Origin: Pseudoxanthobacter soli DSM 19599
GTDB lineage: Bacteria; Pseudomonadota; Alphaproteobacteria; Rhizobiales; Segnochrobactraceae
DNA: 64,000 bases
Direction of reading: 5' to 3'
Assembly (NCBI GenBank): GCA_945898215.1
Contig: CAMDHY010000007.1
Location: 1-64,000, forward strand
Positions 6,069 to 19,997 of the stretch are shown in pieces (positions within the stretch are counted from its first letter, which is position 1; each line of letters begins with the position of its first letter). The position numbers and the translations under genes were made by a program. The notes below the pieces were generated by a model. It saw nothing but the letters and a program-made list of their open reading frames with translations, was not told the DNA's origin and made no database searches.

Positions 6069-7190
6069 ACCATTTCGGAGAAGGCCCTCGAGATCATGAG
6101 GACCGTTCCCGACGTTCGGGAGGCCAATCGCGACTGGGGAAATCGCACCCCTGTCGTCCGCTTCGTCCCGGATCAGGACCGGCTGAACCTCATCGGCCTG
6201 TCGGCGGCCGAAGTGGGCCAGCAGCTTCAGTTCCTCCTCACCGGCATTCCCGTCACCGCGGTCCGCGAGGACATCCGCAACGTCTCGGTCGTGGCGCGCA
6301 GCGCCGGCGACGAGCGCATGGACCCGGCGCGCCTGCCGGATTTCTCGCTGATGACGCGGGATGGCCGGCAGGTCCCGCTCGACCAGATCGGCCGCTCGGA
6401 AATCCGCCTGGAAGAGCCGATCCTCAAGCGTCGCGACCGCGTCCCGGTCATCACCGTCCGCTCGGACATCAACGAGGCGACGCAGCCTCCGGAGGTGTCC
6501 AAGGCGGTGATGGTGGCGCTCGAGCCCCTGATCGCGTCGCTGCCGCCCGGTTATCGCATCGAGATGGGGGGATCGATCGAGGAGGCCACGAAGGCCAATG
6601 CGGCGCTGGCGACGGTCTTCCCGATCATGATCGCCGCCACGCTGATCATCATCATGCTGCAGGTCCGGTCCTTCTCGATGCTGGGGATGGTCCTGCTGAC
6701 GGCGCCGCTCGGCCTCGTCGGCGTCGTCCCGGCCCTCATTGCCTTCAACCAGCCCTTCGGGTTCAACGCCATCCTCGGCCTGATCGGGCTTGCCGGCATC
6801 CTGATGCGGAACACGCTCATCCTGACGGAGCAGATCAAGGAGAACCGCGCGGCCGGGCTCGACGACTACCATGCGGTCGTCGAGGCGACCGTGCAGCGCA
6901 CGCGGCCCGTCATCCTGACCGCACTCGCCGCGGTGCTGGCCTTCATTCCCCTCACGCACTCGGTCTTCTGGGGATCGATGGCCTACACGCTGATCGGCGG
7001 CACCGCCGTCGGCACGGTGTTGATCCTGCTGTTCCTGCCGGCCCTCTACGCGACGTGGTTCCGCATCAGGCCGACGGCCGATGTGGCTCATGACGTCAAC
7101 GCGTCGACACCGGCCTCTCAAGCCGCCATGGCTGCGGCTGCCTGGGCAGACGGCCGGAGCCCGGGGTCGTCACCCGGCGTGGCGCGGTGA
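6069..7190 (+). pseudogene. RND efflux pump, C-terminal part after in-frame stop
   Basis: Continuation, in the same frame, of the pump interrupted at 6066. It holds the rest of the second porter domain and the TM8-TM12 region (IMIAATLIIIMLQVRSFSML, then GLAGILMRNTLILTEQIKEN and the final helices). The first available ATG is at 6096, but no convincing ribosome site precedes it, and a half pump without the first six helices is not expected to work. It ends 13 bases from the convergent SIMPL gene stop. Together with the upstream part it would give a normal-length RND protein. Confidence 0.82.
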
Positions 7191-7202
7191 CGGCCCGATC
7201 CG

Positions 7203-7955
7203 TCAGAGCGCGCTCGGCTCGAGGGAGAAGATCACCGTCACCTCCGCCGACAGCTCGACCGAGCCCGCTTCCACCGGTGCGGCGGGTGCGGCTTCCGCGG
7301 CCATCCGCATCATCGGGCGGGGCGCCATCTCCGCCGACATCTCGGAGATCGCCAGCACGCGGCCGGTCTTGACGTTGGCGGCGGCGGCGAAGAGGTCCGC
7401 CTTGCGGCGGGCGTCGCGCACGGCGCCCTCGCGCGCCTGGTCGCGCAGGATGGTGTCGTCCTCGATGGTGAAGGCAACGCCGTCGATCTGGTTGGCGCCG
7501 GCGCGGACGGCGGCGTCGAGGAGTTCGCCGAGCCTGGCGACCTCCCGTACCCGCACCGAGACGCCGTTGCGCACGGTGTAGCCGGCGATGCGCGGCGGCG
7601 CGTCGTCGTCGGTTCGGTCGGCATAGCGCGGGTAGACCGAGAAGCCGGAGGTCTGCACGTCGGCGGGCGCGACGCCGGCCGCCTTCACCGCGTCGATCAG
7701 CCGGGTGGTGTCGGTGGAGTTGCCGGTGAGCGCGGCGCCGGCGGTGTCGGCGTCGGTCACCACCGACAGCGTCACCATCGCCGTGTCCGGCGCCCCGGAG
7801 ACGGTGGCCGAGCCGGTGACGACGATGCGTCCGTCCGCCGGCAGGATCGACAGCTGCTGCGCCTCGGCCCGGTCGTAGGCCACGGGGGCGAGGAGGACGC
7901 CGGCGAACAGGGCGGCAGCGAGGGCGGCGGCGGGTCCGCGGCGGCAGGTCGTCAT
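7203..7955 (-). CDS. SIMPL (DUF541) domain periplasmic protein
   Basis: About 250 residues. The signal peptide (RRGPAAALAAALFAGVLLAP, cut after ERAEA-type AEAQ) is followed by a SIMPL/DUF541 domain: an opening GRIVVTGSATVSGAPDTAMV strand, the DVQTSGFSVYPRY turn and a YTVRNGVSVRV strand. Family members are exported proteins of unclear biochemistry, some linked to oxidative or envelope stress. The start at 7955 is preferred over the 8084 start because AGGAG lies just upstream and it places the signal peptide correctly. It is convergent with the efflux operon and divergent from the tRNA. Confidence 0.88.
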   Translation of the reverse strand: MTTCRRGPAAALAAALFAGVLLAPVAYDRAEAQQLSILPADGRIVVTGSATVSGAPDTAMVTLSVVTDADTAGAALTGNSTDTTRLIDAVKAAGVAPADVQTSGFSVYPRYADRTDDDAPPRIAGYTVRNGVSVRVREVARLGELLDAAVRAGANQIDGVAFTIEDDTILRDQAREGAVRDARRKADLFAAAANVKTGRVLAISEMSAEMAPRPMMRMAAEAAPAAPVEAGSVELSAEVTVIFSLEPSAL

Positions 7956-8022
7956 CGTGTCGTCTCCTCGGCTGTCGACATCGGCGCTTTGTGCCGGCGC
8001 GAGCCCGACGGGTCCCACGCCA

Positions 8023-8050
8023 TTGCGACCGCAATACGACGTGCTATAGC
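8023..8050 (+). promoter_or_regulatory. Probable promoter of the CAU tRNA gene
   Basis: TTGCGA at 8023-8028 and TATAGC at 8045-8050 are 16 bases apart and end 19 bases before the tRNA. This fits a sigma-70-type promoter for a stable RNA. Assigned by inspection only. Confidence 0.55.
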
Positions 8051-8069
8051 GCTGCCACGCGCCACGCGC

Positions 8070-8145
8070 GGGCCCGTAGCTCAATGGTTAGAGCCGGCCG
8101 CTCATAACGGTCTGGTTGCAGGTTCGAGTCCTGCCGGGCCCACCA
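8070..8145 (+). tRNA. tRNA with CAU anticodon, most likely tRNA-Ile2
   Basis: A full cloverleaf can be drawn. The acceptor stem GGGCCCG (8070-8076) pairs with CGGGCCC (8135-8141). The D stem is GCTC/GAGC, the anticodon stem GGCCG/CGGTC with loop CTCATAA, and the T stem GCAGG/CCTGC with loop TTCGAGT. The discriminator is A, and CCA is encoded at 8143-8145. The anticodon CAT is at 8103-8105. CAU tRNAs can be initiator Met, elongator Met or Ile2 (read as AUA after lysidine modification). The initiator hallmarks are absent and the body resembles Ile2, so Ile2 is preferred; elongator Met is the alternative. The 3' end borders an AT-rich region. Confidence 0.93.
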
Positions 8146-8720
8146 TCCGCAAAGGCCACCTGGTGCCCCGTTGGTCTCAGGGGCCGCATTGACGGCAATG
8201 GAACGACGCTCCGTAGCGGGCCTTCAGACGATAGCGATCCCGGGGCACCTGACGGCCCCGGCCCGTCGGAAGAAGCGGCAGCATACGGGAATGACAACAC
8301 GCAATCCCTGTGTATTGCCGATCGTCTCGCCGCTCGACGGCCAAGACGCAGTGATCTGGTCGCGATAGCTGGAAAATGAAGTGATATTCTTGAAGAATAC
8401 GTGATAGAAGACATATAAAATGTATCGATTATTTGGACAAAGCGTGCCTGAAAACAAGATATAATTGCTACAATAATATTGCAAAAAGCGAATGTTTATT
8501 GTTATCAGCAATTTCAAATGGTATATAATTATCCGACATGTGATGAATAAAAGTCAAACTAAACGATTCAATATTACTGAAACTTCATCACTTCAATATT
8601 GAAATTGATGATGAAATCCATTAAGAACATGGTTGTGGAGTTGATAAATTGACAAAATACTGATGGTACGGGTGCGCCGATGATCGAGAGCGTTGAGCCT
8701 GCGGATGCAAGGCCCCGGCC
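8146..8720. other. Gene-free, partly very AT-rich region beside a tRNA
   Basis: No convincing gene was found in 575 bases. The first 220 bases have normal composition. From about 8370 to 8690 GC drops sharply: two 60-base rows near 8461-8580 contain only about 25-27% GC, against about 70% overall. The stretch has many TA steps and poly-A/T runs, a palindrome near 8592 and a repeated TTCAATATT (8567-8575 and 8592-8600). The frames on either strand look like chance ORFs. It ends where the ferric-reductase-like gene begins. Foreign origin and silencing by an AT-binding protein such as MucR/Ros are inferences. Confidence 0.8.
8584..8615. repeat. Palindromic element in the AT-rich region
   Basis: A perfect 12-bp palindrome, TTCAATATTGAA (8592-8603), is flanked by TTCATCA on the left and TGATGAA on the right, giving a larger imperfect cruciform. 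A second copy of TTCAATATT lies 25 bases upstream. It could be an operator or an end of a lost element; its function is not known. Confidence 0.5.
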
Positions 8721-9998
8721 TTGACCGGGATCGTCGTGACGAAGCCGTGGCAGCCCGTGGTGGCGATCGCAGTGGTGAGCGCCGGGTTCGTCCTCGTCGA
8801 TGTTCCGGCCGCGACGTGGCTGACAACCGCAACAATGAGCTTGGCGTCGGGTGTCGCGGCTCTCGCATTGATGGCGACGGCGGCCATCCTCAGCGGGCGC
8901 TGGGCGTGGGTGGAGGGGTTCTTCGGAGGGCTGGACCGGGTCTATGAGGCCCACAAGTGGTTGGCGATTTCAGCACTTTGCCTCGCCTCGGTGCACCTGT
9001 TGTTCAAGGCAGGCATTGGCCAGTGGGAGACGGCGTCGATCCTCGCGCTGCCTGGCGAGTGGACCCGGTTTGTCAGGCAGGCGAGTTTTGTCGGCCTGAT
9101 GCTGATCGTGATGTTGTCGCTCAATCGCAATGTTCCCTACAGCGCCTGGCGATGGTGGCATCGCTTGTCGGGACCGCTTTTCCTGATCGTCGTGCTGCAC
9201 TGGGTCAGCATCAAGTCTCCGCTGCCATTGGTCAGCCCAGCCGGGATATGGCTCGGCGTACTGAGCGGCCTGGGCGTCGGAGCCGCAGTCTACAAGCTGT
9301 TGCTGTATCCGGTCATCGCGAACCACGCGGAATACAGGGTTGTCGGCGTCACCAAGGGACCCGCTGCTGCACAGGTCGAACTTGAACCGACTGGGCGGGG
9401 GATATCCTTCCGACCGGGGCAGTTCGGCTTTCTCAGGATGAAGGTCGACGGTCTCCGCGAGTCCCATCCGTTCACGATTGCTGCTGCCGAAACCCCGTCT
9501 GGACAGGTTTCGTTCGTCATTCGCGCACTGGGCGATTACACGCAGAAGCTGATCGCAGATATCCAACCCGATATGCTCGCGGACATCTACGCCCCCTACG
9601 GCCGCTTCGAGCGCTCACCGGCCGCTGCGCGGGAAATCTGGGTGGGCGGAGGTGTTGGTATTTCACCCTTCGTGGCCTGGCTGCAGGACAAGAACGCGGA
9701 ACAGGACAAGCGCGTCAGTCTCTTCTATTTCTATACACCGGGCAGGGCGTTCCCGGAGATCGACGCTCTGCGGGATTTGGCTGCTCAGAAGGGCGTTGAA
9801 TTCGTACCGGTGAGCAGCGGTCCCGGCACACCGAGTTTCGTTGAACGCTTCGTGGAGATCATTCGCGAAGATGACCTGGCGAAGCTGGATATCGCCGTCT
9901 GCGGGCCCGCGGGCCTGCTGAACCACATCCGCGCGCTGGCAATCGCGAACGGCGTCGAGCCGGGTCAGATTCGGCACGAACTGTTTGTGTTTCGCTGA
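8721..9998 (+). CDS. Ferric-reductase-like flavohaem membrane oxidoreductase
   Basis: 425 residues. The N-terminal half has about six membrane helices with haem-ligand-type histidines (YEAHKWLAI, CLASVHLL, WWHRLSGP, VVLHWVS), as in the ferric reductase / NADPH oxidase superfamily. The C-terminal half is a ferredoxin-reductase module with the FAD motif HPFTIA (near 249) and NAD-binding motifs GGGVGISPF (near 309) and CGPAGL (near 394). It would pass electrons from NAD(P)H across the membrane; the acceptor is unknown. The frame has only a TTG start, with AAGG eight bases upstream and an in-frame stop at 8694. GC (near 60%) is clearly below neighbouring genes, and the AT-rich region precedes it, suggesting acquisition. 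Confidence 0.85.
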   Translation: MTGIVVTKPWQPVVAIAVVSAGFVLVDVPAATWLTTATMSLASGVAALALMATAAILSGRWAWVEGFFGGLDRVYEAHKWLAISALCLASVHLLFKAGIGQWETASILALPGEWTRFVRQASFVGLMLIVMLSLNRNVPYSAWRWWHRLSGPLFLIVVLHWVSIKSPLPLVSPAGIWLGVLSGLGVGAAVYKLLLYPVIANHAEYRVVGVTKGPAAAQVELEPTGRGISFRPGQFGFLRMKVDGLRESHPFTIAAAETPSGQVSFVIRALGDYTQKLIADIQPDMLADIYAPYGRFERSPAAAREIWVGGGVGISPFVAWLQDKNAEQDKRVSLFYFYTPGRAFPEIDALRDLAAQKGVEFVPVSSGPGTPSFVERFVEIIREDDLAKLDIAVCGPAGLLNHIRALAIANGVEPGQIRHELFVFR

Positions 9999-10090: not shown

Positions 10091-10933
10091 TCACGCGCCG
10101 CGGCGCAGAGCCTCGACCAAGCCGTCGTCGACATAGTGCGGGCCGTCGAAGAGGTAGAGCGGGTAGCCGCTAAGCGCCGCGAGCTGCGGGGCGATCTCCG
10201 CTGCGATGGCCGCCCGGAAGCCACCCTCGGTGTGCGGCCGGAAGGCCTCGATGATCACGCGCAGCCGCCCCAGCCCGAGCTTCTCTGCGAGCGCGTCGGC
10301 GTACTCCCGCGCCACCGCCGGTGTGCGCGCATGCACGCCGACGCCGTCCTGGAAGAACACGCCGATGTCGGCCGGCAGCCAGCTGGAAAGCCAGGTCGCC
10401 AGCGTGCCGGCGCCGACGTTGGCGCTGTCGTAGACGCTGATCCACAGGGGCCGCGGCAGCGGCGCGAGCAGGTCGGCGAGCCGCGGCGCCTCCTGCCAGG
10501 TCGGGTCGACCTCGACGGGGAAGTACCAGCCGGTGACGTTGAGCGGCGTCGGCAGGTAGGCGAGGCGCCGCGACAGCGCGGCGAGCCCGGCGATGTCGGC
10601 GCGGGCCTCGCGCTCGCCGAAGCGGCCGGCGAGGCCGAGGATCACCTCTCTCGCCCACGGCTCGCGGGCGATGCGGCTCCAGTCCGGCAGCACCGGGACG
10701 GTCGGCAGACCGGCGTCGGCGACGAAGGACTGGCCGTCGACGACGATCCATTGCACCAGGAGTTCGCGGGCACCGAGCGCATGCCATTGGCCGGCGATGC
10801 CGACGGTGGCATTGTCCGGCTGCCAGACGATGCCGTCGACGAGCGGCGGCGGCACCTCCGGCCGCGACGTCCGCCAGAGCACCGCGCCGCCGGCCCCGGC
10901 CGCAAGCGCCCCGGCCGTGAGCGACCCCGCCAC
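10091..10933 (-). CDS. DUF4434-like (glycoside-hydrolase-fold) periplasmic protein of the NfrAB locus
   Basis: About 280 residues after an N-terminal hydrophobic segment. Motifs such as NVTGWYFPVEVDPTW, PLWISVYDSAN and GVFFQDGVGVHA resemble DUF4434-type TIM-barrel proteins related to glycoside hydrolases, so a role in trimming or handling the polymer made by the upstream genes is plausible. The only standard start is GTG at 10933. Upstream, in frame, lies a twin-arginine-like stretch (PRRPSRRLVAGS) reached from a CTG overlapping the NfrA stop (CTGA, 10991-10993), so the true start may be that CTG and export may be by Tat. The E. coli nfr locus also has a third gene, ybcH; whether this is its counterpart needs comparison. 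Confidence 0.75.
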   Translation of the reverse strand: MAGSLTAGALAAGAGGAVLWRTSRPEVPPPLVDGIVWQPDNATVGIAGQWHALGARELLVQWIVVDGQSFVADAGLPTVPVLPDWSRIAREPWAREVILGLAGRFGEREARADIAGLAALSRRLAYLPTPLNVTGWYFPVEVDPTWQEAPRLADLLAPLPRPLWISVYDSANVGAGTLATWLSSWLPADIGVFFQDGVGVHARTPAVAREYADALAEKLGLGRLRVIIEAFRPHTEGGFRAAIAAEIAPQLAALSGYPLYLFDGPHYVDDGLVEALRRGA

Positions 10934-10989
10934 CAGCCGGCGCGAGGGCCGTCGCGGCGCCGCTGCGGCGCCCGGCTGCGGGTCGGGGC

Positions 10990-13299
10990 TCAGTAGGACA
11001 CCGTCATGCCGGCGAACAGGCCGCGGGCACGATTGTCGCCGGCGAGCCTGAACCGGTACTGCACGTTCATGTCCACATAGGAGCGCGGCGCCGCGTACTT
11101 GTCCTCGCGGAACCAGTAGCGCAGTGCGAAGCCCGGCCCCGTGCCGAGCGCGCCGGGATCGGCGAAGCTCGAATCGTAGCTGCCGCCGAGCGCCAGGAAC
11201 GGCGTCGCCACCAGCTTGTCGCTGATCGCATCGAGGCGGAAGCTCTCGCCGACGCGCCCCTCGAACACCGCGACGTTCTGGGCGGTCTCGAAGAAGCGGT
11301 CGGCCTCGCCGTAGACCTGCCAGGTCGTCCAGTGCGGATCGACGACGTTGAGGTCGGTGCCTTCGCCGGCCGAGAAGGCGGCGCGGGCGAGCCAGTCCTC
11401 GCGCGAGGCCGAGCCGAGCTTCACGAGCCGCGCGCCCTCGAAGATGAGGTTCCAGTCCGAGAACGGCTTCCAGCGCACGCCGACGAGGCCCTGCAGCGTC
11501 TCCGGCCCGGTCCGGCCGCCGCGCTCGTCGTAGATCGTCTGGAAGGCGCGGGCGAAGACCTCCACCAGGGCGCCGTTGCGGTAGCCGATCTCCGGCGGCC
11601 GCCAGTAGACCTCGGCACCGATCTGCCCGACGTTGCGCCCGCCGCTCGGCGTCGGCGCCGTCGTCGAGCTCGGCGCCACCCCGACGGCGCCGTAGGTGAC
11701 CGTCAGATAGGCGCCCCAGGTGCGGGTGATGTCGGCCACCTCGCGACGCAGGCCGAACTTGTACTGCGGGTCGAGCTCGATCTCGCCCGCGTCCGCCGCG
11801 TCGATGCCGGCCTTGAAGAACTCCACGGCTTCCGCGTTGCGGAAGCGCCGCTTGGCGGCATAGGCGGCGTCGAGATAGGCGCGGCCCTTCAACTCGCCCG
11901 CAGCCTCCGCCTTCTCGTAGTAGGGGAGCGCGAGTTCATCGTCGCCGACGCCGCTCGCGAGATAGGCGATGTCGAGGTCGGAGGCTCCGGCGAGCGAGCC
12001 GTCGGCGAGCGCCTCGGTCAGCAGCACGCGGGCCTCCTCCCGCCGGCCGAGCTCGCTCATCAGGGCGATGACGGTGCGGGTGGCGAGTGTCCGCTCGGTC
12101 GCGCCGGGGGCGAGGCGGCGGGCGGTCTCGAAGGCGGCGAGCGCCTCTTCCTTTCGATCCAGCGCGAGCAGCGCGAAGCCGATGCGCGAGGCGACGGCGT
12201 AGCTGGTCTCGCCGGCGAGCGGCCCCAGCAGATCTAGGGCCGCTTGTGGCTGGTTCGCCGCCATCGCGGCATCGGCGGCGGCGAGCCGCAGCGTGCGCGC
12301 CTCGCCAGGCCGCGTCGGCCCAAGCCGCAGCGCCGCCTGGAAATCGGCGAGCGCGCCGGCGGCATCGCCGCGCTGCAGGCGCAGATTGCCGCGCTGGGTG
12401 AACAGCGAGACGGTCGGCCGGCGCGAGAGCAGCTCTGTCAGGATAGCCTCCGCCTCGCTGGTTCGCCCGGCGGCGAGCGCAGCATCCGCGAGCGCGAGCC
12501 GCAGCGTCCACGCCTCCGGCGATCCCGCCGGCAGGAGCCGCAGCGCGGCCGCGAAGTCGTCGGCCGCCGCACCATGGCGGCCGAGGGCCTGGCGGAGGTA
12601 GCCGCGCTGCGTCAGAAGCGCGGCGTCCGGCCGTGCGGCGAGCAGGGCCGACAGCACCGTCTCAGCCTCGGCCTTGCGGCCCGCTGCGGAGAGCGCGTCG
12701 GCGAGCAGCAGCCGATACTCGCGCCGGTCGGGGGCGAGGCGGACGGCGGCGCGTGCCCGCTCCACCGCCGTCGAAGCGCGCCCGGCGGCGAGCGCCTTGA
12801 AGGCGGCGTCGGCCTCGACGAAGGCGGGATCGGTGGTCGAGGGCGCGCCGCCGATGGCGTCGCGGTAATCGAGGCTGTCCCACGACCGCCGATCGGCCCG
12901 GAAGGCGAGCCGCTCGCTGATGGTCGCCAGCCGGTCGGCGATGCGCGGGTCGCCCACATCGGCGATGCGAGCCTCCGCGGTGGCGGTGGCGAGGTCGTCG
13001 GCGGCGATCAGCGCATCGACGAGTTGCACGCGCAGCTGCTCCGAATCCGGCCGCTGTCGGAGCGCCTCGCGCAACAGCGAGACGGCGGTGGTGAAATCAC
13101 CCGCAGCGACGGCCTCGTAGGCGCGGGTGGCGAGCGCGAGCGGCGGGCCCGATAGCGGAAGCTCGATCGTCTCCTGCGCGCCGGCGCCGAACGGCATCGC
13201 CAGCGCGAGCGCAAGCAGCAGAGAGGCCGACGGAATCCGAATCCGTCGAGCCCGTCGTGGCGGAGGCGCAGCGCGCCCGCCGAACAACGCCCGCACCAT
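10990..13299 (-). CDS. nfrA: NfrA-like outer-membrane polysaccharide secretion protein (TPR + barrel)
   Basis: 769 residues. A signal peptide (SASLLLALALAMPFGAGAQ) precedes a long TPR array, with repeated blocks such as EAWTLRLALADAALAAGRTS and EARTLRLAAADAAMAANQPQ between about 50 and 480. The C-terminal region matches the NfrA_C type and ends in Tyr (MTVSY) like outer-membrane barrels. In E. coli, NfrA is the phage N4 receptor and exports the NGR polysaccharide made by NfrB; the layout here is analogous to BcsC. It lies 165 bases behind nfrB and overlaps the DUF4434-like frame. E. coli NfrA is longer (about 990 residues), so this is a shorter version. An alternative is a generic BcsC-like secretin of another polymer. 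Confidence 0.82.
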   Translation of the reverse strand: MVRALFGGRAAPPPRRARRIRIPSASLLLALALAMPFGAGAQETIELPLSGPPLALATRAYEAVAAGDFTTAVSLLREALRQRPDSEQLRVQLVDALIAADDLATATAEARIADVGDPRIADRLATISERLAFRADRRSWDSLDYRDAIGGAPSTTDPAFVEADAAFKALAAGRASTAVERARAAVRLAPDRREYRLLLADALSAAGRKAEAETVLSALLAARPDAALLTQRGYLRQALGRHGAAADDFAAALRLLPAGSPEAWTLRLALADAALAAGRTSEAEAILTELLSRRPTVSLFTQRGNLRLQRGDAAGALADFQAALRLGPTRPGEARTLRLAAADAAMAANQPQAALDLLGPLAGETSYAVASRIGFALLALDRKEEALAAFETARRLAPGATERTLATRTVIALMSELGRREEARVLLTEALADGSLAGASDLDIAYLASGVGDDELALPYYEKAEAAGELKGRAYLDAAYAAKRRFRNAEAVEFFKAGIDAADAGEIELDPQYKFGLRREVADITRTWGAYLTVTYGAVGVAPSSTTAPTPSGGRNVGQIGAEVYWRPPEIGYRNGALVEVFARAFQTIYDERGGRTGPETLQGLVGVRWKPFSDWNLIFEGARLVKLGSASREDWLARAAFSAGEGTDLNVVDPHWTTWQVYGEADRFFETAQNVAVFEGRVGESFRLDAISDKLVATPFLALGGSYDSSFADPGALGTGPGFALRYWFREDKYAAPRSYVDMNVQYRFRLAGDNRARGLFAGMTVSY

Positions 13300-13464
13300 C
13301 CCAAACCCTTCGACGCTGGGGCCGCCCTGTCGCGGCTTCCGGTCGGCTCGTCTTGGTTGTTGTTCGAGCCGCCGCCTTCCCGTCGATTCTCACTGATTCG
13401 TCGCGTTTCGCCGAGCCCGGCGTGACCCGCGCCGCAAAGAAAATCGCCGCGCCGGCGTCGCCGC

Positions 13465-15576
13465 TCAGGCGGCGGCGCGCTGCTGCAGCGTCAGGGCCTC
13501 GGCGAGGGAAGCGGCCGACAGCACGCCGGCTTGCACGAGGAAATCGCCGATGCGGCCGTGCTGCTCCGGCCGGTAGAGCGCCATCGCCTTGTCGAAGGCG
13601 GCGCGGTCGATCAGCCGGTGCTCGATCAGCACGTCGCCGAGCAGCGGCATGGTGCGACCGGTTGCGACCTCGTCGAGGGCGGTTTCGTCACCGCGCAGGA
13701 CGCGCAGGCCGGCGGCGATCTCGCTCTCGCGCGCGATCACCTGAACCGGTTCGTGGCCGAGGCTCGCCGTCAGGTCGGCCAGCGGCTGCGGTCGCAACGG
13801 CGAAGCGGTGGCGAGGACGATCCGCCCGTCCTCGCTGCGCCCGGCCGCCAGCACCCGATAGCGGACGGCGTCGTCGAGCGGCAGGTCGCCGGCATGCGCG
13901 CCCAACAGGTCGGCCGTTAGCGCCATCCGTCCAAGGCCGGCCTGCACGGCGATCGCCTCGGCGAGCGTCTCCTCGTCGAGCCAGCCGTTGATGACCAGGA
14001 TGCGGCCGAGCGGCAGGTCGCGCCGGCTCTGCTCCTCGAGTGCCGCCGACAGCCGGCCCTCGTCCACCACCTGCCAGGAGGTGAGGAGTTCGCCGAGCCG
14101 CCGCCGCCGCTTCTCCAGCACCTCCTCGGATGGGAAGTCGTGGGCCGTCTTGTCCCAGGCGATGCGCGTGCCGAACAGGAGGTGGCCGATGAACAGCTTC
14201 CACGCCCGCGCAGCCGCCATGAAGTTCACGAAGTTGGCGACGATCATGCGCGGGATCGACAAGAGCCCGTGCTCCCATCCGTAGATGCGCGCCACGAAGT
14301 AGAAGCGCTGCACCGCGCGCAGGGCGAGCGCGATGGCGTTCGCCACGAGCAGCCAGGCGAAGACGCTGTCGGGCTCGAACAGTGGCGGATAGCGGATGTA
14401 CCAGACGCCCGCCACCGCCAGGAAATAGAAGGCGACGAGGTTGAAGGCGATCAGGTAGCCGGCGATGTTGATGAACTGGGTGAAGATGCCCTTGCGGTCG
14501 CGGAACAAGAGGTAGCGGGCCGCCAGCGAGCCCGTCCAGCCGATCTGCTGCCAGCTCTGCAGGCCGATGCCGACCGTCCAGCGCGCCTTCTGGCGATAGG
14601 CGGCGCGGAAGGAGTTCGGGAAATACTCGCGCACGCACAGCGGCATGCGGATGCGCACCTCGCGCTCGGGCCCGAAATTGAACAGGAACCGCCGCCGCGT
14701 CGAGAACTCCACCGGAAAGCGAGCGAAGATCGAGGTCATGCCGGCGCGCGAGAGGCGCTCGCCGATGTCGTAGTCCTCGGTCAGGGTGTCGGTGTTAAAG
14801 GGCTGGTTGTCGGTCTCGGCGGCGAGCGTCATCAGCGCCCGCCGCGAGAAGCAGGTGCCGACGCCGGCCGAGGGCACGACGCCGGCGAGGCTCTCGCGGA
14901 CGACGAGGTCCTTGGCGTGCCACTCGGCGAACTCGTCCATGTAGGTGCCGGCGACCATCTCGAACCAGTCGCGGTCGAGCGAGACGACGGGGATCTGGAT
15001 GAGGTCCTTGCGCGGCAGCAGGTAGTTGAAGAACTTCAGCTCGAGCGGGTGCAGCACGTCTTCGCTGTCGTGCAGCACCATGCCGGCGAACTGCACGCCG
15101 GTGCGCTTCTCGTGGTGCAGGATCGCCTGGACGATCCAGTTCAGGCAGTCGGCCTTGCAGGTCGGACCGGGGTGGGGCACCTCGACCCGCACCAGCTGTT
15201 TGAAGCGCCGCAGCATGCGGTCGACCTCGCCGATCGTCGCGGAGTCGTTGACGTAGGTGCCGACGAAGACGACGTAGTTCCGGTACTCGAGTACCGAGAC
15301 CATGCTCTCCAGCATGGCGGCGATGACGTCGGATTCGAGCCACGCCGGCACCATGATCGCCATCGGCTGCTCGGTGCGGGCGCGCAGCTGCTCGGCGCTG
15401 AGCGGCTTGTATTTCCGCTTCACCGTCAGCGTCCGCCACGTCTCCCGTGTCCAGAACCAGGCGTCGATGAACAGGTCGTCGATCGACGAGATCAGGATCA
15501 GCACGGCGACGAGCAGCGCCGCCCGTTCGAGCCAGGTCTGGTACTCGGCGATCAGATAGGGCCAGAACAGCTCCAC
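13465..15576 (-). CDS. nfrB: NfrB-like membrane glycosyltransferase with C-terminal MshEN c-di-GMP-binding domains
   Basis: About 703 residues from GTG 15576. Membrane helices flank a GT2 catalytic domain with the processive signature: DSED (about 170-173), TEDYD (266-270) and QKARW (329-333). After the last helices the C-terminus has MshEN repeats: RRLGELL...Q then PLGRILVINGWLDEETLAEA, and a further pair ending GRIGDFLVQAGVLSAASLAE. In E. coli, NfrB polymerises N-acetylmannosamine and is switched on by c-di-GMP at its MshEN domain. A TTG at 15627 would extend the frame, but that stretch overlaps the upstream coding region and looks like its shadow, so GTG is chosen. UDP-ManNAc would come from the WecB encoded two genes upstream. 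Confidence 0.85.
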   Translation of the reverse strand: MELFWPYLIAEYQTWLERAALLVAVLILISSIDDLFIDAWFWTRETWRTLTVKRKYKPLSAEQLRARTEQPMAIMVPAWLESDVIAAMLESMVSVLEYRNYVVFVGTYVNDSATIGEVDRMLRRFKQLVRVEVPHPGPTCKADCLNWIVQAILHHEKRTGVQFAGMVLHDSEDVLHPLELKFFNYLLPRKDLIQIPVVSLDRDWFEMVAGTYMDEFAEWHAKDLVVRESLAGVVPSAGVGTCFSRRALMTLAAETDNQPFNTDTLTEDYDIGERLSRAGMTSIFARFPVEFSTRRRFLFNFGPEREVRIRMPLCVREYFPNSFRAAYRQKARWTVGIGLQSWQQIGWTGSLAARYLLFRDRKGIFTQFINIAGYLIAFNLVAFYFLAVAGVWYIRYPPLFEPDSVFAWLLVANAIALALRAVQRFYFVARIYGWEHGLLSIPRMIVANFVNFMAAARAWKLFIGHLLFGTRIAWDKTAHDFPSEEVLEKRRRRLGELLTSWQVVDEGRLSAALEEQSRRDLPLGRILVINGWLDEETLAEAIAVQAGLGRMALTADLLGAHAGDLPLDDAVRYRVLAAGRSEDGRIVLATASPLRPQPLADLTASLGHEPVQVIARESEIAAGLRVLRGDETALDEVATGRTMPLLGDVLIEHRLIDRAAFDKAMALYRPEQHGRIGDFLVQAGVLSAASLAEALTLQQRAAA

Positions 15577-15592
15577 GGCGGCTGGTCCCGCG

Positions 15593-17890
15593 TCAGCCCT
15601 GGCCCTTGCGGGCCTTGCGCCGGGCAACCGCCGCGCGGATCAGGAGCAGCACGAACAGCAGCACCGCGACGGTGGCGATCGGCACCGCCCAGCCCATCTG
15701 CGTGCCCCCCGGCAGCGCCCGCACGATCGGCTGCAGCTCCTCCGGCAGCCAGGCGCTGATGTCGGTGGCGCCGGGTAGCAGCCCCGGCTGCGGCCCGCCG
15801 ATCTCCAGGGTGCGGTTTCCGCTCACCTCGGCGAGCACGCCGGCGGGGCCGACGACGGCGACGTCGCCGCGCCCGAGGCGGATCGGCTTCTCGAACACCG
15901 GTGCCTGCTGGCCGACGGTGGCGTAGGCGATGCCGTGCAGCTCGCCGGCGCGCACGACGTCGACGACGCCGATGTCGTCGAGGCCGGAGACGTCGAGGAT
16001 CGGGCTGCCTGCATTGTTGTCGACGATGAGCCGGCCCGCCTCGGCGCGCGCCTGGCCGCTGAGGCCGGCGACGGTCGCCCCGATGGACAGGAACGGCCGC
16101 GTCGGCACGGTGGCGGCGCCGGGCGCCGCGACCACGAGGGTCGCCTTGTCGGCGGCGATGCCGACCGCCTCTGCGATGCCGGTGAGCGTCGCGAGGCTCG
16201 CGGGCGCGTCCGACAGCGCGGCCGCCGGCACAATGACGTCGGCGCCGCCGGCATAGCGGGCGATCATGCCGACGAAGTCGTCGGAGGCGGCAACGGCGCC
16301 GAGCTGCACGTGGCTCGTCGGCAGCACCGCCGCCGGATAGGCCTGCGGCGTCTCCCGGCAGTGCTCGCCCCCCGGCTGGCGCTGGAAGGTGACGCGCAGC
16401 ACGTTGGTGGAGGCCAGCGCATAGCTCGGGATGCGGGCGGTGATCCGCTCGGGCCGCCCGTCGGCCGTCAGCATCCTGGCGCCGAGCAGCACGTCGTTCA
16501 GGTAGACGGTGGCGACCGGCGCCGTGGCGGTGGCGCCGGGTGCTGCGGCGACGTCGACGACGAGCTGGTCCGGCACGCGGCCGGCGCGGGCGATGGCGCC
16601 GAGACCGAAGGTCGCCGTCCAGTCGCCGCGCGCCAGCACCTCGATCGCGCCGGGCGTGCCGCCGAGGTCGCTCAGCGGCAGGATGTCGGCGGCGGGCAGC
16701 GCCGGCTCGACGACGCGCGCCACCACGCTGCGCGTCAGCACGATGCGGTGCCAGAGCTGCGCGAACAGGCCGGCCGCCTGCGCGCCCGCTTCCGGAGCCA
16801 CCGCGATGACCGGCAGGCCGGCGAGGCCGGCGACGCGGATGGCGTCGGCCGTGGCCGGGGCGGTGGCGGAATTCGCCGGCCCGGCACGCCAGTTCGCCAG
16901 CGTCGGGGCAGCGGCCGGTGCGTGCGTCGCGATCTCGGCCGCGAGCGCGTCGAACGCGGTGGCGGTGGCAACGGAGAGCGCCGCGTCGGCGACCACGAGG
17001 TCGGCCCTCAGCCCGCCGGCGGCGAGTGCCAGGAAGGCCCCCGCCTCGGCATCGCTGGCGAGCACCCGGCTGCCGCCGTCCGCGAGCGCCGCGAAGGCCG
17101 GGATCGCCCTGAGCGCCACCGGCACCGTCACGCCGGAGAGGTCGACGGTGTCGCCCTTCGCCGGCAAGGCGGCGAACATCGGTCGCTTGCCGGCGCGCGC
17201 CAGCGCGACGCCGATGCGCCACGCGGCATCGTAGGAACGCTCCGCGAGCGTGCGGCCCGCGACGAGCACCACCGGTCGGCTCGGCAGCGCCGTCCAGGCG
17301 GTGGCGACGTCGGTGACCGCGGCGCCGTCGAAGGCGTAGGTGAAGCGCGTGCCCGGCCCGATGGCGAGCGCGTTGGCGATCTGGCGCTCGTCCTCGCAGG
17401 CGTCGACGGAGACCTGCGACGACCAGGCGAGGCCGAGCTGCAGGAAGCCGCTCGGGCGCGCCTCGCCGTCGACGCCGACGCGCACCGACGCGTCGCCGCT
17501 GTCGTTGGTGAAGGCGCGCGCCGAGACCGGGAAGCCGTCGAGCGACATGAGCAGGGTCGAGCGGCCCGGCACGGCGCGCAGGTAGCGGGCGTCAAAGTCG
17601 AGGGAGGCGGCCTCGATCGGGATGCCGGCCGGGACCGGCAGGTAGATCTCGCGCCGCGCGTCGATGGAGGCGAGCACGTCCGGCCGGTCGAAGCCGAGTT
17701 CACGCAGCGTCACCGTGCGCGTCACCTGGCGGTCGTTGAGGAGGACCGCGAGGGCCGCTGCCGTGGCGTCGCCACCGGATGCGTCCTGCGCCGCAACGGG
17801 GACGGCGGTCGCCAGCATAGCAGCGAGGGCGATGGCGGACCGGGCGCCCGGGGCGGTCCGGGCGCGGCGGAGCGTGGAAACGCAGATCAT
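15593..17890 (-). CDS. BcsB-like periplasmic polysaccharide synthase subunit
   Basis: 765 residues: signal peptide (IALAAMLATAVPVAAQ), a large periplasmic portion, then one C-terminal helix (VPIATVAVLLFVLLLIRAAV) and a basic tail. The N-terminal part has the BcsB pattern TVTLRELGFDRPDVLASID followed by a carbohydrate-binding-like segment (LLMSLDGFPVSARAF) and paired repeats. BcsB anchors the cellulose synthase BcsA and guides the emerging glucan, so this protein may do the same for the NfrB-like enzyme. Its start overlaps the wecB stop (ATGA) and its stop is 17 bases before the NfrB GTG, a tight operon. A BcsB partner is not part of the E. coli nfr locus. The C-terminal half is divergent, so the assignment is by architecture. 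Confidence 0.75.
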   Translation of the reverse strand: MICVSTLRRARTAPGARSAIALAAMLATAVPVAAQDASGGDATAAALAVLLNDRQVTRTVTLRELGFDRPDVLASIDARREIYLPVPAGIPIEAASLDFDARYLRAVPGRSTLLMSLDGFPVSARAFTNDSGDASVRVGVDGEARPSGFLQLGLAWSSQVSVDACEDERQIANALAIGPGTRFTYAFDGAAVTDVATAWTALPSRPVVLVAGRTLAERSYDAAWRIGVALARAGKRPMFAALPAKGDTVDLSGVTVPVALRAIPAFAALADGGSRVLASDAEAGAFLALAAGGLRADLVVADAALSVATATAFDALAAEIATHAPAAAPTLANWRAGPANSATAPATADAIRVAGLAGLPVIAVAPEAGAQAAGLFAQLWHRIVLTRSVVARVVEPALPAADILPLSDLGGTPGAIEVLARGDWTATFGLGAIARAGRVPDQLVVDVAAAPGATATAPVATVYLNDVLLGARMLTADGRPERITARIPSYALASTNVLRVTFQRQPGGEHCRETPQAYPAAVLPTSHVQLGAVAASDDFVGMIARYAGGADVIVPAAALSDAPASLATLTGIAEAVGIAADKATLVVAAPGAATVPTRPFLSIGATVAGLSGQARAEAGRLIVDNNAGSPILDVSGLDDIGVVDVVRAGELHGIAYATVGQQAPVFEKPIRLGRGDVAVVGPAGVLAEVSGNRTLEIGGPQPGLLPGATDISAWLPEELQPIVRALPGGTQMGWAVPIATVAVLLFVLLLIRAAVARRKARKGQG

Positions 17891-19098
17891 CGAGACTGTT
17901 CCTGTCCGGCCGCGGTCGGCCGCGCCTCGGGGCCCGCCGCGGCGGACCCGTCGATGGTGGACTGAGGGTTGAATTCGTCGACCGGCCGGCCGAGCAGGCT
18001 GGCGACGATGCGCCCGGCCGCCCGGCCGTCGCCGTAGGGGTTGACGGCGCGCGCAAAGGTAAGGCGCCAGGCTTCGTCGTCGAGGAGGCGGGCCACCTCC
18101 GCGACTATGCGGGCGGGATCGGTGCCGACAAGCCGCACGGTGCCGGCCGCGAGCGCCTCCGGCCGCTCCGTCACCTCGCGCATCACCAGCACCGGCCGGC
18201 CGAGCGAGGGCGCCTCCTCCTGCACGCCGCCGGAATCGGTCAGCACCACGTCGGCCCGCCGCATCAGGTGGACGAACGGCAGGTAGTCGAGCGGCTCGAT
18301 CAGGTGGACGTTGGAGAAGCCCGACAGCGCCGCCGTGACCGGTCCGTGGACGTTCGGGTTGAGGTGGACGGGGTAGACGATGTCGAGGTCGTCCCGCCGC
18401 GCCAGCGTCGCCAGCGCCGTGCAGATGCCCTCGAAGCCGGCGCCGAAGTTCTCGCGCCGGTGGCCGGTGACGAGGAGCAGCCGGTGCCCCGGCCGCAGGA
18501 AGGCGAAGCGCGCGTCGAGCCCGGCGCGGAGCGCCGCGTCGGCGTCGAGCCGGCGCACTGTCTCCTGCAATGCGTCGATGACGGTGTTGCCGGTGACGAG
18601 GATGCGGCCGGCGACGCTTTCGGCCTCGAGGTTCGCCTTGGCGGTCGCCGTGGGCGCGAACAGCAGGCCGGCCACGACGTCGACGACGCGGCGGTTGAAC
18701 TCCTCCGGCCACGGCTGGGAGAGGTCGCGGGTGCGCAGCCCCGCCTCGACGTGGCCGATCGGGACGCGGCGGTGGAAGGCGGCCACCGCCGCCGCCATCG
18801 CCGTCGTCGTGTCGCCGTGCACGAGGATGCAGTCCGGCTTCTCGGCGAGGATGACGGGGTCGAGCGCCGTCAGCGTGCGCGCCGTCAGGTCGGACAGTGT
18901 CTGGCAGGCCGCCATCAGCGCGAGATCGTGGTCGGGGCGGATGTCGAACAGCGTCAGCACCTGGTCGAGCATCTGCCGATGCTGGCCGGTGACGCAGACG
19001 ATCGAGTGGACGGCCGGCTCGGCGGCGAGCGCTGACACCACCGGGGCCATCTTCAGGGCCTCGGGTCTCGTCCCGAAGATCGACAGGATGCGGATCAA
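17887..19098 (-). CDS. wecB: UDP-N-acetylglucosamine 2-epimerase (non-hydrolysing)
   Basis: 403 residues. Interconverts UDP-GlcNAc and UDP-ManNAc. Family hallmarks are FGTRPEALKMAP at the N-terminus, HGDTTTAMAAA, GHVEAGLRT, TGHRRENFG and LTDSGGVQEEAPSLGRPVL. A proline/alanine-rich tail of about 30 residues follows the catalytic fold. The start is a TTG preceded by a weak GAAGCGAG; no in-frame ATG fits the conserved beginning. It heads the block wecB / BcsB-like / NfrB-like / NfrA-like, placing ManNAc supply with a polymerase and fitting the known need of E. coli NGR for WecB. A small leader frame with a strong Shine-Dalgarno ends 12 bases upstream. Confidence 0.93.
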   Translation of the reverse strand: MIRILSIFGTRPEALKMAPVVSALAAEPAVHSIVCVTGQHRQMLDQVLTLFDIRPDHDLALMAACQTLSDLTARTLTALDPVILAEKPDCILVHGDTTTAMAAAVAAFHRRVPIGHVEAGLRTRDLSQPWPEEFNRRVVDVVAGLLFAPTATAKANLEAESVAGRILVTGNTVIDALQETVRRLDADAALRAGLDARFAFLRPGHRLLLVTGHRRENFGAGFEGICTALATLARRDDLDIVYPVHLNPNVHGPVTAALSGFSNVHLIEPLDYLPFVHLMRRADVVLTDSGGVQEEAPSLGRPVLVMREVTERPEALAAGTVRLVGTDPARIVAEVARLLDDEAWRLTFARAVNPYGDGRAAGRIVASLLGRPVDEFNPQSTIDGSAAAGPEARPTAAGQEQSR

Positions 19099-19404: not shown

Positions 19405-19565
19405 CTGTTCGAGCAGAGGTGGCGATGTTTTGGGTCGCGGTCAGGCCCGGCGCCGCCGCCTGCGCCCGGCACCTCCGCCTGTCGGATCGCATCCGCCCCG
19501 ATCGTCCTCCGCCGGAAGGCCGCCGACCACGCCGTCCGGCCGGCCAAACGACGAGGAGGAAAATC

Positions 19566-19997
19566 ATGACCGACCGCAGCACCATTCTGGCGACCCTCGA
19601 CCAGGGCTTCGCCGCCATCGCCGCCGGGGACGCCGAGGCGGCGGTGGCGGGGTTCGCACCGGACGTCGTCGCCTTCGAGCTGCAGCCGCCGCTGGAATTC
19701 TCCGGCGACGAGGCGCGCGACCCGGACGGCCTGCGGGCGTGGTTTGCCACCTGGCAGGCGCCACCAACGATCGCCCTGCGCGATCCCCGCGTCGAAATCG
19801 AGGGCCCCCTCGCGGTCGTCTACGGCCTCGCCAACATGCGGGGGCGGAAGACTGACGGGGCCGACATCGACCTCTGGTACCGGGCGACGTTCGTGCTGCG
19901 CGACGGCAAGGGGGCTTGGCAGATGATCCACACCCACACCTCGGTGCCGTTCCGCATGGACGGCAGCGAGACGGCGGCGCTCGACCTCAGGCCCTGA
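19566..19997 (+). CDS. SnoaL-like/NTF2-fold protein (ketosteroid-isomerase superfamily)
   Basis: 143 residues. The pattern of an N-terminal helix pair (TLDQGFAAIAAGDAEAAVAG), a long curved sheet and the closing strand GAWQMIHTHTSVPF matches the NTF2-like DUF4440/SnoaL fold. Such proteins are small-molecule-binding domains or enzymes, and the ligand here cannot be predicted. GAGGAGGA eight bases before the ATG at 19566 sets the start; upstream in-frame codons are not used. It is divergent from wecB and convergent with zapA. Confidence 0.8.
   Translation: MTDRSTILATLDQGFAAIAAGDAEAAVAGFAPDVVAFELQPPLEFSGDEARDPDGLRAWFATWQAPPTIALRDPRVEIEGPLAVVYGLANMRGRKTDGADIDLWYRATFVLRDGKGAWQMIHTHTSVPFRMDGSETAALDLRP

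Follow-up and report, generated by a model that had tools for sequence, protein, structure and literature searches.

The five-gene locus described here raises the question of what kind of exopolysaccharide system combines a synthase of the NfrB type with a BcsB-like partner, and whether such a combination forms a class of its own. The locus lies at positions 10091-19098, on the minus strand, of a 64,000-nucleotide stretch of contig CAMDHY010000007.1 of Pseudoxanthobacter soli DSM 19599 (the window). As an earlier annotation made from the letters alone (the sequence-only reading) had described, all five open reading frames are present and follow one another leftward in the order wecB, BcsB-like gene, nfrB (a glycosyltransferase family 2, GT2, synthase with an MshEN part), nfrA and a DUF4434 (YbcH-like) gene. 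The operon likely encodes a synthase-dependent exopolysaccharide synthase and exporter of the kind named NGR in Escherichia coli and PGR in Acinetobacter baumannii, gated by cyclic di-GMP (c-di-GMP) and probably producing a polymer that contains N-acetylmannosamine (ManNAc).

The NfrB-type synthase (13465..15576) was recognized by NCBIfam models, motifs and hydropathy as a protein with an N-terminal transmembrane part, a GT2 region, hydrophobic segments and a C-terminal MshEN part. It reaches 1069.8 bits with NCBIfam NF012033 (cut-off 537) and 654 bits with the E. coli NfrB model NF008411, which is under the cut-off of 1170. The GT2 catalytic region (14422..15366; Pfam Glyco_tranf_2_3, 8.3e-34, and Glyco_trans_2_3, 2.8e-34) harbors the motifs DxD (residues 169-171), TED (265-267) and QxxRW (328-332), whose named residues are invariant in all 87 rows from loci linking nfrB to this type of BcsB (86 loci and the window). 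They align with D169, D267 and W330 of E. coli NfrB, which were reported by Junkermeier and Hengge to be essential for plating of phage N4 (PMC8669469). Both 24-residue MshEN motifs (13942..14100; NF053729, 6.9e-23) are intact, 10 of 14 checked positions being kept in 86 or 87 of the 87 rows, and the pair aligns with L490, G491, L518 and G519 of the E. coli protein, for which binding of c-di-GMP and a need for GT and MshEN residues have been described (PMC8669469). Both parts of an NGR/PGR-type synthase, a GT2 of the NfrB family with the three motifs and a C-terminal MshEN pair, are thus present in the window, in agreement with the c-di-GMP control proposed by the sequence-only reading. By analogy with work on E. 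coli, A. baumannii and cellulose synthesis, c-di-GMP would gate the enzyme in this organism as well. In a tree of GT regions, the window's GT falls with NfrB, apart from BcsA and PgaC of E. coli and from the two BcsA-like proteins of its own genome. Because its deep joins are weak (all NfrB-kind MshEN rows are united with only 54/0) and its branches long, this tree was used solely to place the window's GT with NfrB. At its C end NfrB carries a further pair of MshEN-like motifs (13483..13644; pattern match at residue 674, weaker near residue 644), possibly a second c-di-GMP site. This pair was rejected as a mark of the clade, as E. coli NfrB has a similar, less complete stretch with alanine in place of the pair's first glycine.

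The partner of this synthase is a 765-residue protein with a signal-like N end and a C-terminal helix (15593..17890). It matches Pfam BcsB with 1.8e-8 and 33.7 bits (cut-off 21), the best stretch covering only profile positions 3-139, and no NCBIfam family could be assigned to it (best E 0.16). An artefact of a weak Pfam match was nevertheless rejected as the source of the BcsB call, because the greater part of the protein is covered both by a profile-profile alignment and by a fold search. Comparison of 30 such BcsB-like proteins with 16 cellulose-type BcsB by hhalign gave a probability of 98.6 (E 6.5e-15), and residues 58-689 were paired with the whole 608-residue cellulose BcsB template. 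An AlphaFold2 model (pLDDT 81.9, pTM 0.80) retrieved BcsB in all of the top 22 Foldseek matches to the PDB, with a best E of 7e-22, and VIA-align superposed 508 of its residues on BcsB at 5.6 A (Z 12.9). The protein therefore combines a profile match over the cut-off with the BcsB fold across most of its length, and the BcsB-like call of the sequence-only reading withstood the profile search proposed as its test. Its C-terminal helix (residues 735-761, 15608..15688) is presumed to be an inner-membrane anchor, as in BcsB. In three relatives the BcsB-like gene appears as two reading frames (L112 at 7068-9804, L035 and L069).

The linkage of this BcsB to nfrB was followed across genomes. A scan of named genomes with the window's NfrB yielded 322 relatives, of which the best 80 were kept; these were chosen by likeness to NfrB and are not an even sample. 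Together with E. coli K-12 and with regions of roughly 20 kb taken from 20 sampled genomes they make up 101 loci, 86 of which carry this BcsB type as judged by a home-made profile (80/80 named, 6/21 others); the profile found no match in any of the loci L116-L130. In the 86 BcsB-linked loci the BcsB gene is always on the strand of nfrB, and its stop-to-stop frame ends within 300 bases of that of nfrB in 70 and overlaps it more extensively in 16. On the same strand, wecB lies within 5 kb of nfrB in 82/86, a match to the NfrA profile within 1 kb in 80/86 and within 5 kb in 86/86 (numbers that tetratricopeptide repeat, TPR, matches may inflate), and DUF4434 within 10 kb in 77/86; some of the missing partners sit near contig ends. 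The complete order wecB-BcsB-nfrB-nfrA-DUF4434 was found in 66 of the 101 loci, sometimes with intervening genes between nfrA and DUF4434. The conserved neighborhood and the co-occurrence of nfrB, BcsB and wecB, both named as checks by the sequence-only reading, were thus observed, and its statement that the E. coli nfr locus has no BcsB partner is borne out by K-12.

An evenly drawn phylum sample gave the same association. NfrB-family matches at 1e-60 occur in 24 of 299 genomes, five of which (one being the window's own) exceed 900 bits for NfrB; the same five carry this BcsB type at E <1e-160, adjacent to nfrB in each. In the remaining 19 genomes this BcsB type was not found genome-wide at E 1e-10, in a search that scored at most three first-look candidates per genome and that a weak extra copy could escape. 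Flanking regions covered 18 of the 23 other matching genomes, and five (G125, G167, G191, G250 and G318) were represented only by short search loci. In an NfrB tree of 57 rows, one branch (100/99) separates 14 BcsB-less rows from 43 BcsB-linked rows. This division of the NfrB tree by BcsB linkage at a single branch is a new detail; the tree is unrooted with long branches and silent on gain versus loss of BcsB. The pairwise distances of the five proteins correlate strongly (74 rows including the window, 0.86-0.98 for every pair, NfrB-BcsB highest with 0.982), but no weight was given to these values because they are explained by shared ancestry.

The first gene of the operon, wecB (17887..19098, TTG start, 403 residues), encodes a non-hydrolysing UDP-N-acetylglucosamine (UDP-GlcNAc) 2-epimerase. 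It scores 458.8 bits with TIGR00236 (cut-off 210) and 1e-114 with Pfam Epimerase_2, and the nearest solved chains are UDP-GlcNAc 2-epimerases (5dld, E 5e-133; 1f6d, E 1e-132). As it is the sole Epimerase_2 match found in the draft genome, which is 97% complete, the UDP-ManNAc supply of this organism probably comes from the operon, as the sequence-only reading had proposed. This fits the published pattern that carriers of NfrB without another WecB have one adjoining nfrB (PMC8669469). At the gene level, the WecB source of UDP-ManNAc belonging to an NGR/PGR-type system is thus predicted to be present. The corresponding exporter, a TPR protein with an outer-membrane barrel, is represented by NfrA (10990..13299, 769 residues), for which a TPR-rich part and a C-terminal outer-membrane domain are predicted: Pfam NfrA_C matches residues 594-765 with 2.2e-56, together with TPR families. 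The score with NCBIfam NF007302 (9e-9, 33.9 bits) is far under the cut-off of 1223.

The last gene (10091..10933, 280 residues) encodes a glycosidase-like TIM-barrel protein. Its matches to the DUF4434/YbcH family stay under the curated cut-offs, both for Pfam DUF4434 (9.6e-4, 19.2 bits; cut-off 30) and for NF007404 (2.9e-10, 40 bits; cut-off 344). A home-made profile of this gene and its relatives matches the genes adjoining NfrA in L116-L118 and one gene in the K-12 locus, and E141, D143, D196 and E229 are invariant in 26/26 aligned rows and shared by E. coli YbcH, whereas D84 and D169 are invariant in these rows and absent from YbcH. These matches, the residue alignment and the predicted fold support a distant relative of DUF4434/YbcH. 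The AlphaFold2 model (pLDDT 93.3) yielded five Foldseek chains at E <=0.001, of which three belong to 4h41 and the other two to the C-terminal domain of E. coli PgaB; VIA-align gave Z 20.3 for 4h41, 14.8 for GH164 and about 14 for PgaB. The link to PgaB holds at the level of the fold only, because PgaB ties with many other TIM-barrel glycosidases, and a hydrolase activity may be suspected from other systems. A pattern check for export signals in 50 scorable loci found one twin-arginine signal and 14 lipoboxes; in the remaining loci the check missed the anchor on which its scoring depends. A twin-arginine signal match is present in the DUF4434 protein of L113. In the window, the frame is open upstream of the GTG start (10934-10995), and translation from a CTG overlapping the nfrA stop would add an arginine pair and a signal-like stretch.

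The sequence-only reading had suggested a distinct, perhaps undescribed, class of secretion system. This claim fails, because BcsB-containing loci are in print for Achromobacter xylosoxidans (PMC8669472) and A. baumannii (PMC12507263); the operon belongs to the known NGR/PGR kind, described in these two other bacteria. In A. xylosoxidans (2021), nfrA, nfrB and wecB are clustered with a BcsB homologue, by description as in the window, and with homologues of O-acetyltransferases, which the window operon lacks (PMC8669472). Of the genes for the enterobacterial common antigen, the same report finds WecB alone to be needed (PMC8669472). The PGR locus of A. baumannii (2025) contains NfrB-like, BcsB-like, WecB-like, porin and PgaB-C-terminus-like genes (PMC12507263). 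By description it shares with the window the synthase, the BcsB and WecB homologues, the outer-membrane porin and the PgaB-C-terminus-like protein, but it comprises seven genes including the GGDEF-like pgrA without catalytic motif, which has no counterpart in the window operon. E. coli nfrBA-ybcH has NfrB, NfrA and the DUF4434 protein in the same order as the window, but neither BcsB nor wecB adjoins the K-12 locus, and its NfrA has 990 residues versus 769. An operon classification of exopolysaccharides does not name NfrB in its main text (PMC7112194), and MshEN, glycosyltransferase and BcsB occur jointly in three open-licence PMC papers, the A. xylosoxidans report included.

On the basis of these gene identities and homologies, WecB would convert UDP-GlcNAc to UDP-ManNAc, which NfrB would polymerise, perhaps with other sugars. 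Binding of c-di-GMP to the MshEN part of NfrB would allow passage of the chain through the inner membrane, where the BcsB-like protein on the periplasmic face of NfrB would guide it. The DUF4434 TIM-barrel would bind or trim the chain, and the TPR part and barrel of NfrA would take it across the outer membrane. The sugar of the polymer and the contact of BcsB with NfrB are suggested by work on E. coli, A. baumannii and cellulose synthesis. The mechanism gains support because BcsB-like and WecB-like mutants of A. baumannii are phage-resistant: insertions in or clean deletion of pgrD (BcsB-like) led to resistance to phage StAb3, with loss of phage adsorption in the deletion mutant, a change in pgrF (WecB-like) likewise led to resistance, and both were complemented (PMC12507263).

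Several points weigh against this interpretation. With 15% identity and a summed posterior of 134 across 518 columns, the profile alignment with cellulose BcsB is a loose one. The fold match is moderate: Foldseek gives TM 0.48 (relative to query length) and an rmsd of 7.7, and VIA-align gives BcsB Z 12.9, compared with 10.8 for the highest-scoring unrelated protein, which matches in a single domain. No wecB match was obtained in four BcsB-linked loci, of which three sit close to the end of a contig. UDP-ManNAc as substrate is suggested by linkage and by genetics elsewhere, and in the available text of the reports the polymers of E. coli and A. baumannii, and likewise their ManNAc, are proposed and not chemically solved (PMC8669469, PMC8669472, PMC12507263). 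Two related NfrBs of 568-580 residues (L114, 9192-10931; L115, 8897-10600) lack the stretch after the first MshEN pair, so c-di-GMP gating may vary among relatives. Finally, co-transcription of all five genes is only putative, because a weak terminator-like pattern (13457-13445) lies inside the nfrB-nfrA gap and a search of the operon region revealed no sigma-70-like promoter. This gap of 165 bases is also where the close spacing claimed by the sequence-only reading breaks down. Elsewhere the claim stands: the wecB stop and the BcsB-like ATG overlap as ATGA, a 16-base gap or an overlap separates the BcsB-like gene from nfrB depending on the nfrB start (15576, GTG, or 15627, TTG), and 56 bases lie between nfrA and the DUF4434 gene.

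The synthase could instead make a polymer based on GlcNAc or glucose, similar to poly-N-acetylglucosamine (PNAG) or cellulose, with wecB serving another pathway. BcsB-like partners characterize cellulose systems, and the PgaB C-terminal domain of PNAG systems is one of several glycosidases to which the fold of the DUF4434 protein is similar. However, the GT region groups with NfrB and apart from BcsA and PgaC, and wecB opens the operon with its ATGA overlap and keeps its place near nfrB in the great majority of BcsB-linked loci (the 82/86 given above), so that such a product appears unlikely. The homology to BcsB across most of the protein would also be expected of a second cellulose-type (Bcs) operon with an exchanged c-di-GMP sensor. 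Common to the window operon and cellulose BcsAB are the fold of BcsB and a GT2 synthase of the inner membrane under c-di-GMP control, which for the window is a prediction. The c-di-GMP sensor of cellulose BcsA is PilZ. The Pfam matches of the five operon proteins, taken up to E 1, include no PilZ, and the synthase is of the NfrB type with MshEN and not a BcsA. Moreover, the genome harbors two cellulose-type BcsB loci elsewhere (L131 and L132, contigs C59 and C9), each with a BcsA-like frame, recognized by motif, close by, and a 100/100 branch separates the window's BcsB from 17 cellulose-type rows; a second Bcs operon is scarcely credible.

The locus might also have been acquired sporadically or be decaying, without a present role. 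Among 347 sampled genomes of the order, just three, which all belong to the window's own family, have a full-length NfrB over the cut-off (a fourth match over the cut-off is a short form); this rarity favors such an explanation. Against it stand the five open reading frames, the kept catalytic and c-di-GMP motifs and the presence of all five genes in both other sampled genera of the family (L110 and L111), which render it very unlikely. An NGR/PGR-type exopolysaccharide operon is therefore the preferred reading.

The BcsB proteins were further compared among themselves. The 100/100 branch mentioned above sets the BcsB of nfr loci together with those of two further loci, L148 and L149, apart from the cellulose-type rows, in a tree in which all cellulose rows except that of E. 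coli were trimmed to the Pfam-matched stretch and 11 rows have an unlike letter make-up. Profile comparison gave 8.5e-49 between NGR-type and L148/L149 BcsB, and 6.5e-15 and 7.8e-17, respectively, for each against cellulose BcsB. Among 20 other BcsB loci, the NGR-type profile matched L148 and L149 strongly, L140 weakly (3.8e-6) and the other 17 not at all. L148 (5091-11999) contains a BcsB-like gene, a GT2 with N-terminal MshEN, a further conserved protein and a GH113 gene, and L149 (309-6299) the first three of these; WecB, NfrA and DUF4434 have no match in either. By gene content alone, both fit the sfz twisted-stalk cluster of iron-oxidising Zetaproteobacteria, which encodes a BcsB-like protein and a GT2 with an EpsE-N/MshEN part (PMC8250860). 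Their BcsB is the nearest to the window's among the sets compared and the GT2-MshEN combination is common to both, but their MshEN is N-terminal and their GT far from NfrB, whereas the MshEN of the window is C-terminal. Of the 299 sampled genomes, 21 have BcsB matches of the weaker L148/L149 kind (families f62 and f81; two neighborhoods were read). No open-licence PMC paper among the matches listed treats sfz and NfrB together, and the grouping of nfr-locus BcsB with sfz-like BcsB, across the branch from cellulose BcsB, may be a new detail. Tentatively, and with somewhat less than an even chance of being right, MshEN-gated GT2 synthases with a BcsB-like partner could constitute a broad secretion class of their own that comprises two or more branches (MshEN being C-terminal in NGR/PGR and N-terminal in the sfz-like branch) and has a BcsB lineage separate from that of cellulose; the BcsB-less nfr locus of E. 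coli would then be an unusual form.

The genes flanking the operon are on the opposite strand and unrelated (ferric-reductase-like, 8721-9998; SnoaL-like, 19419-19997). Acetylation genes resembling AlgX, MBOAT and AlgF proteins lie near many BcsB-linked nfr loci (L097, 18533-20116; L072, 15708-19612; L115, 14491-18285). An AlgX-like sequence cluster, of which only representatives were scanned, occurs in 35/86; the window operon is without such acetylation genes, and its genome has three AlgX-type genes outside the operon. In a Pseudomonas locus, a CHASE4-PAS-GGDEF-EAL protein (L041, 17165-19876) is encoded close to the nfr operon; its sequence cluster, of which one representative was scanned, occurs in 14/86 loci. 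NfrB relatives were present in 27 of 72,556 plasmid records, some of them chromosome-sized among the matches listed (H1-H15).

For E. coli and Acinetobacter, the polymer of such loci has been reported to serve phages as a receptor. With a wecB and a BcsB of its own, the five-gene form is a compact system found in many soil and plant-associated bacteria. It is thus a practical object for solving the chemistry of the polymer and the role of a BcsB whose partner is an MshEN-gated synthase and not BcsA.

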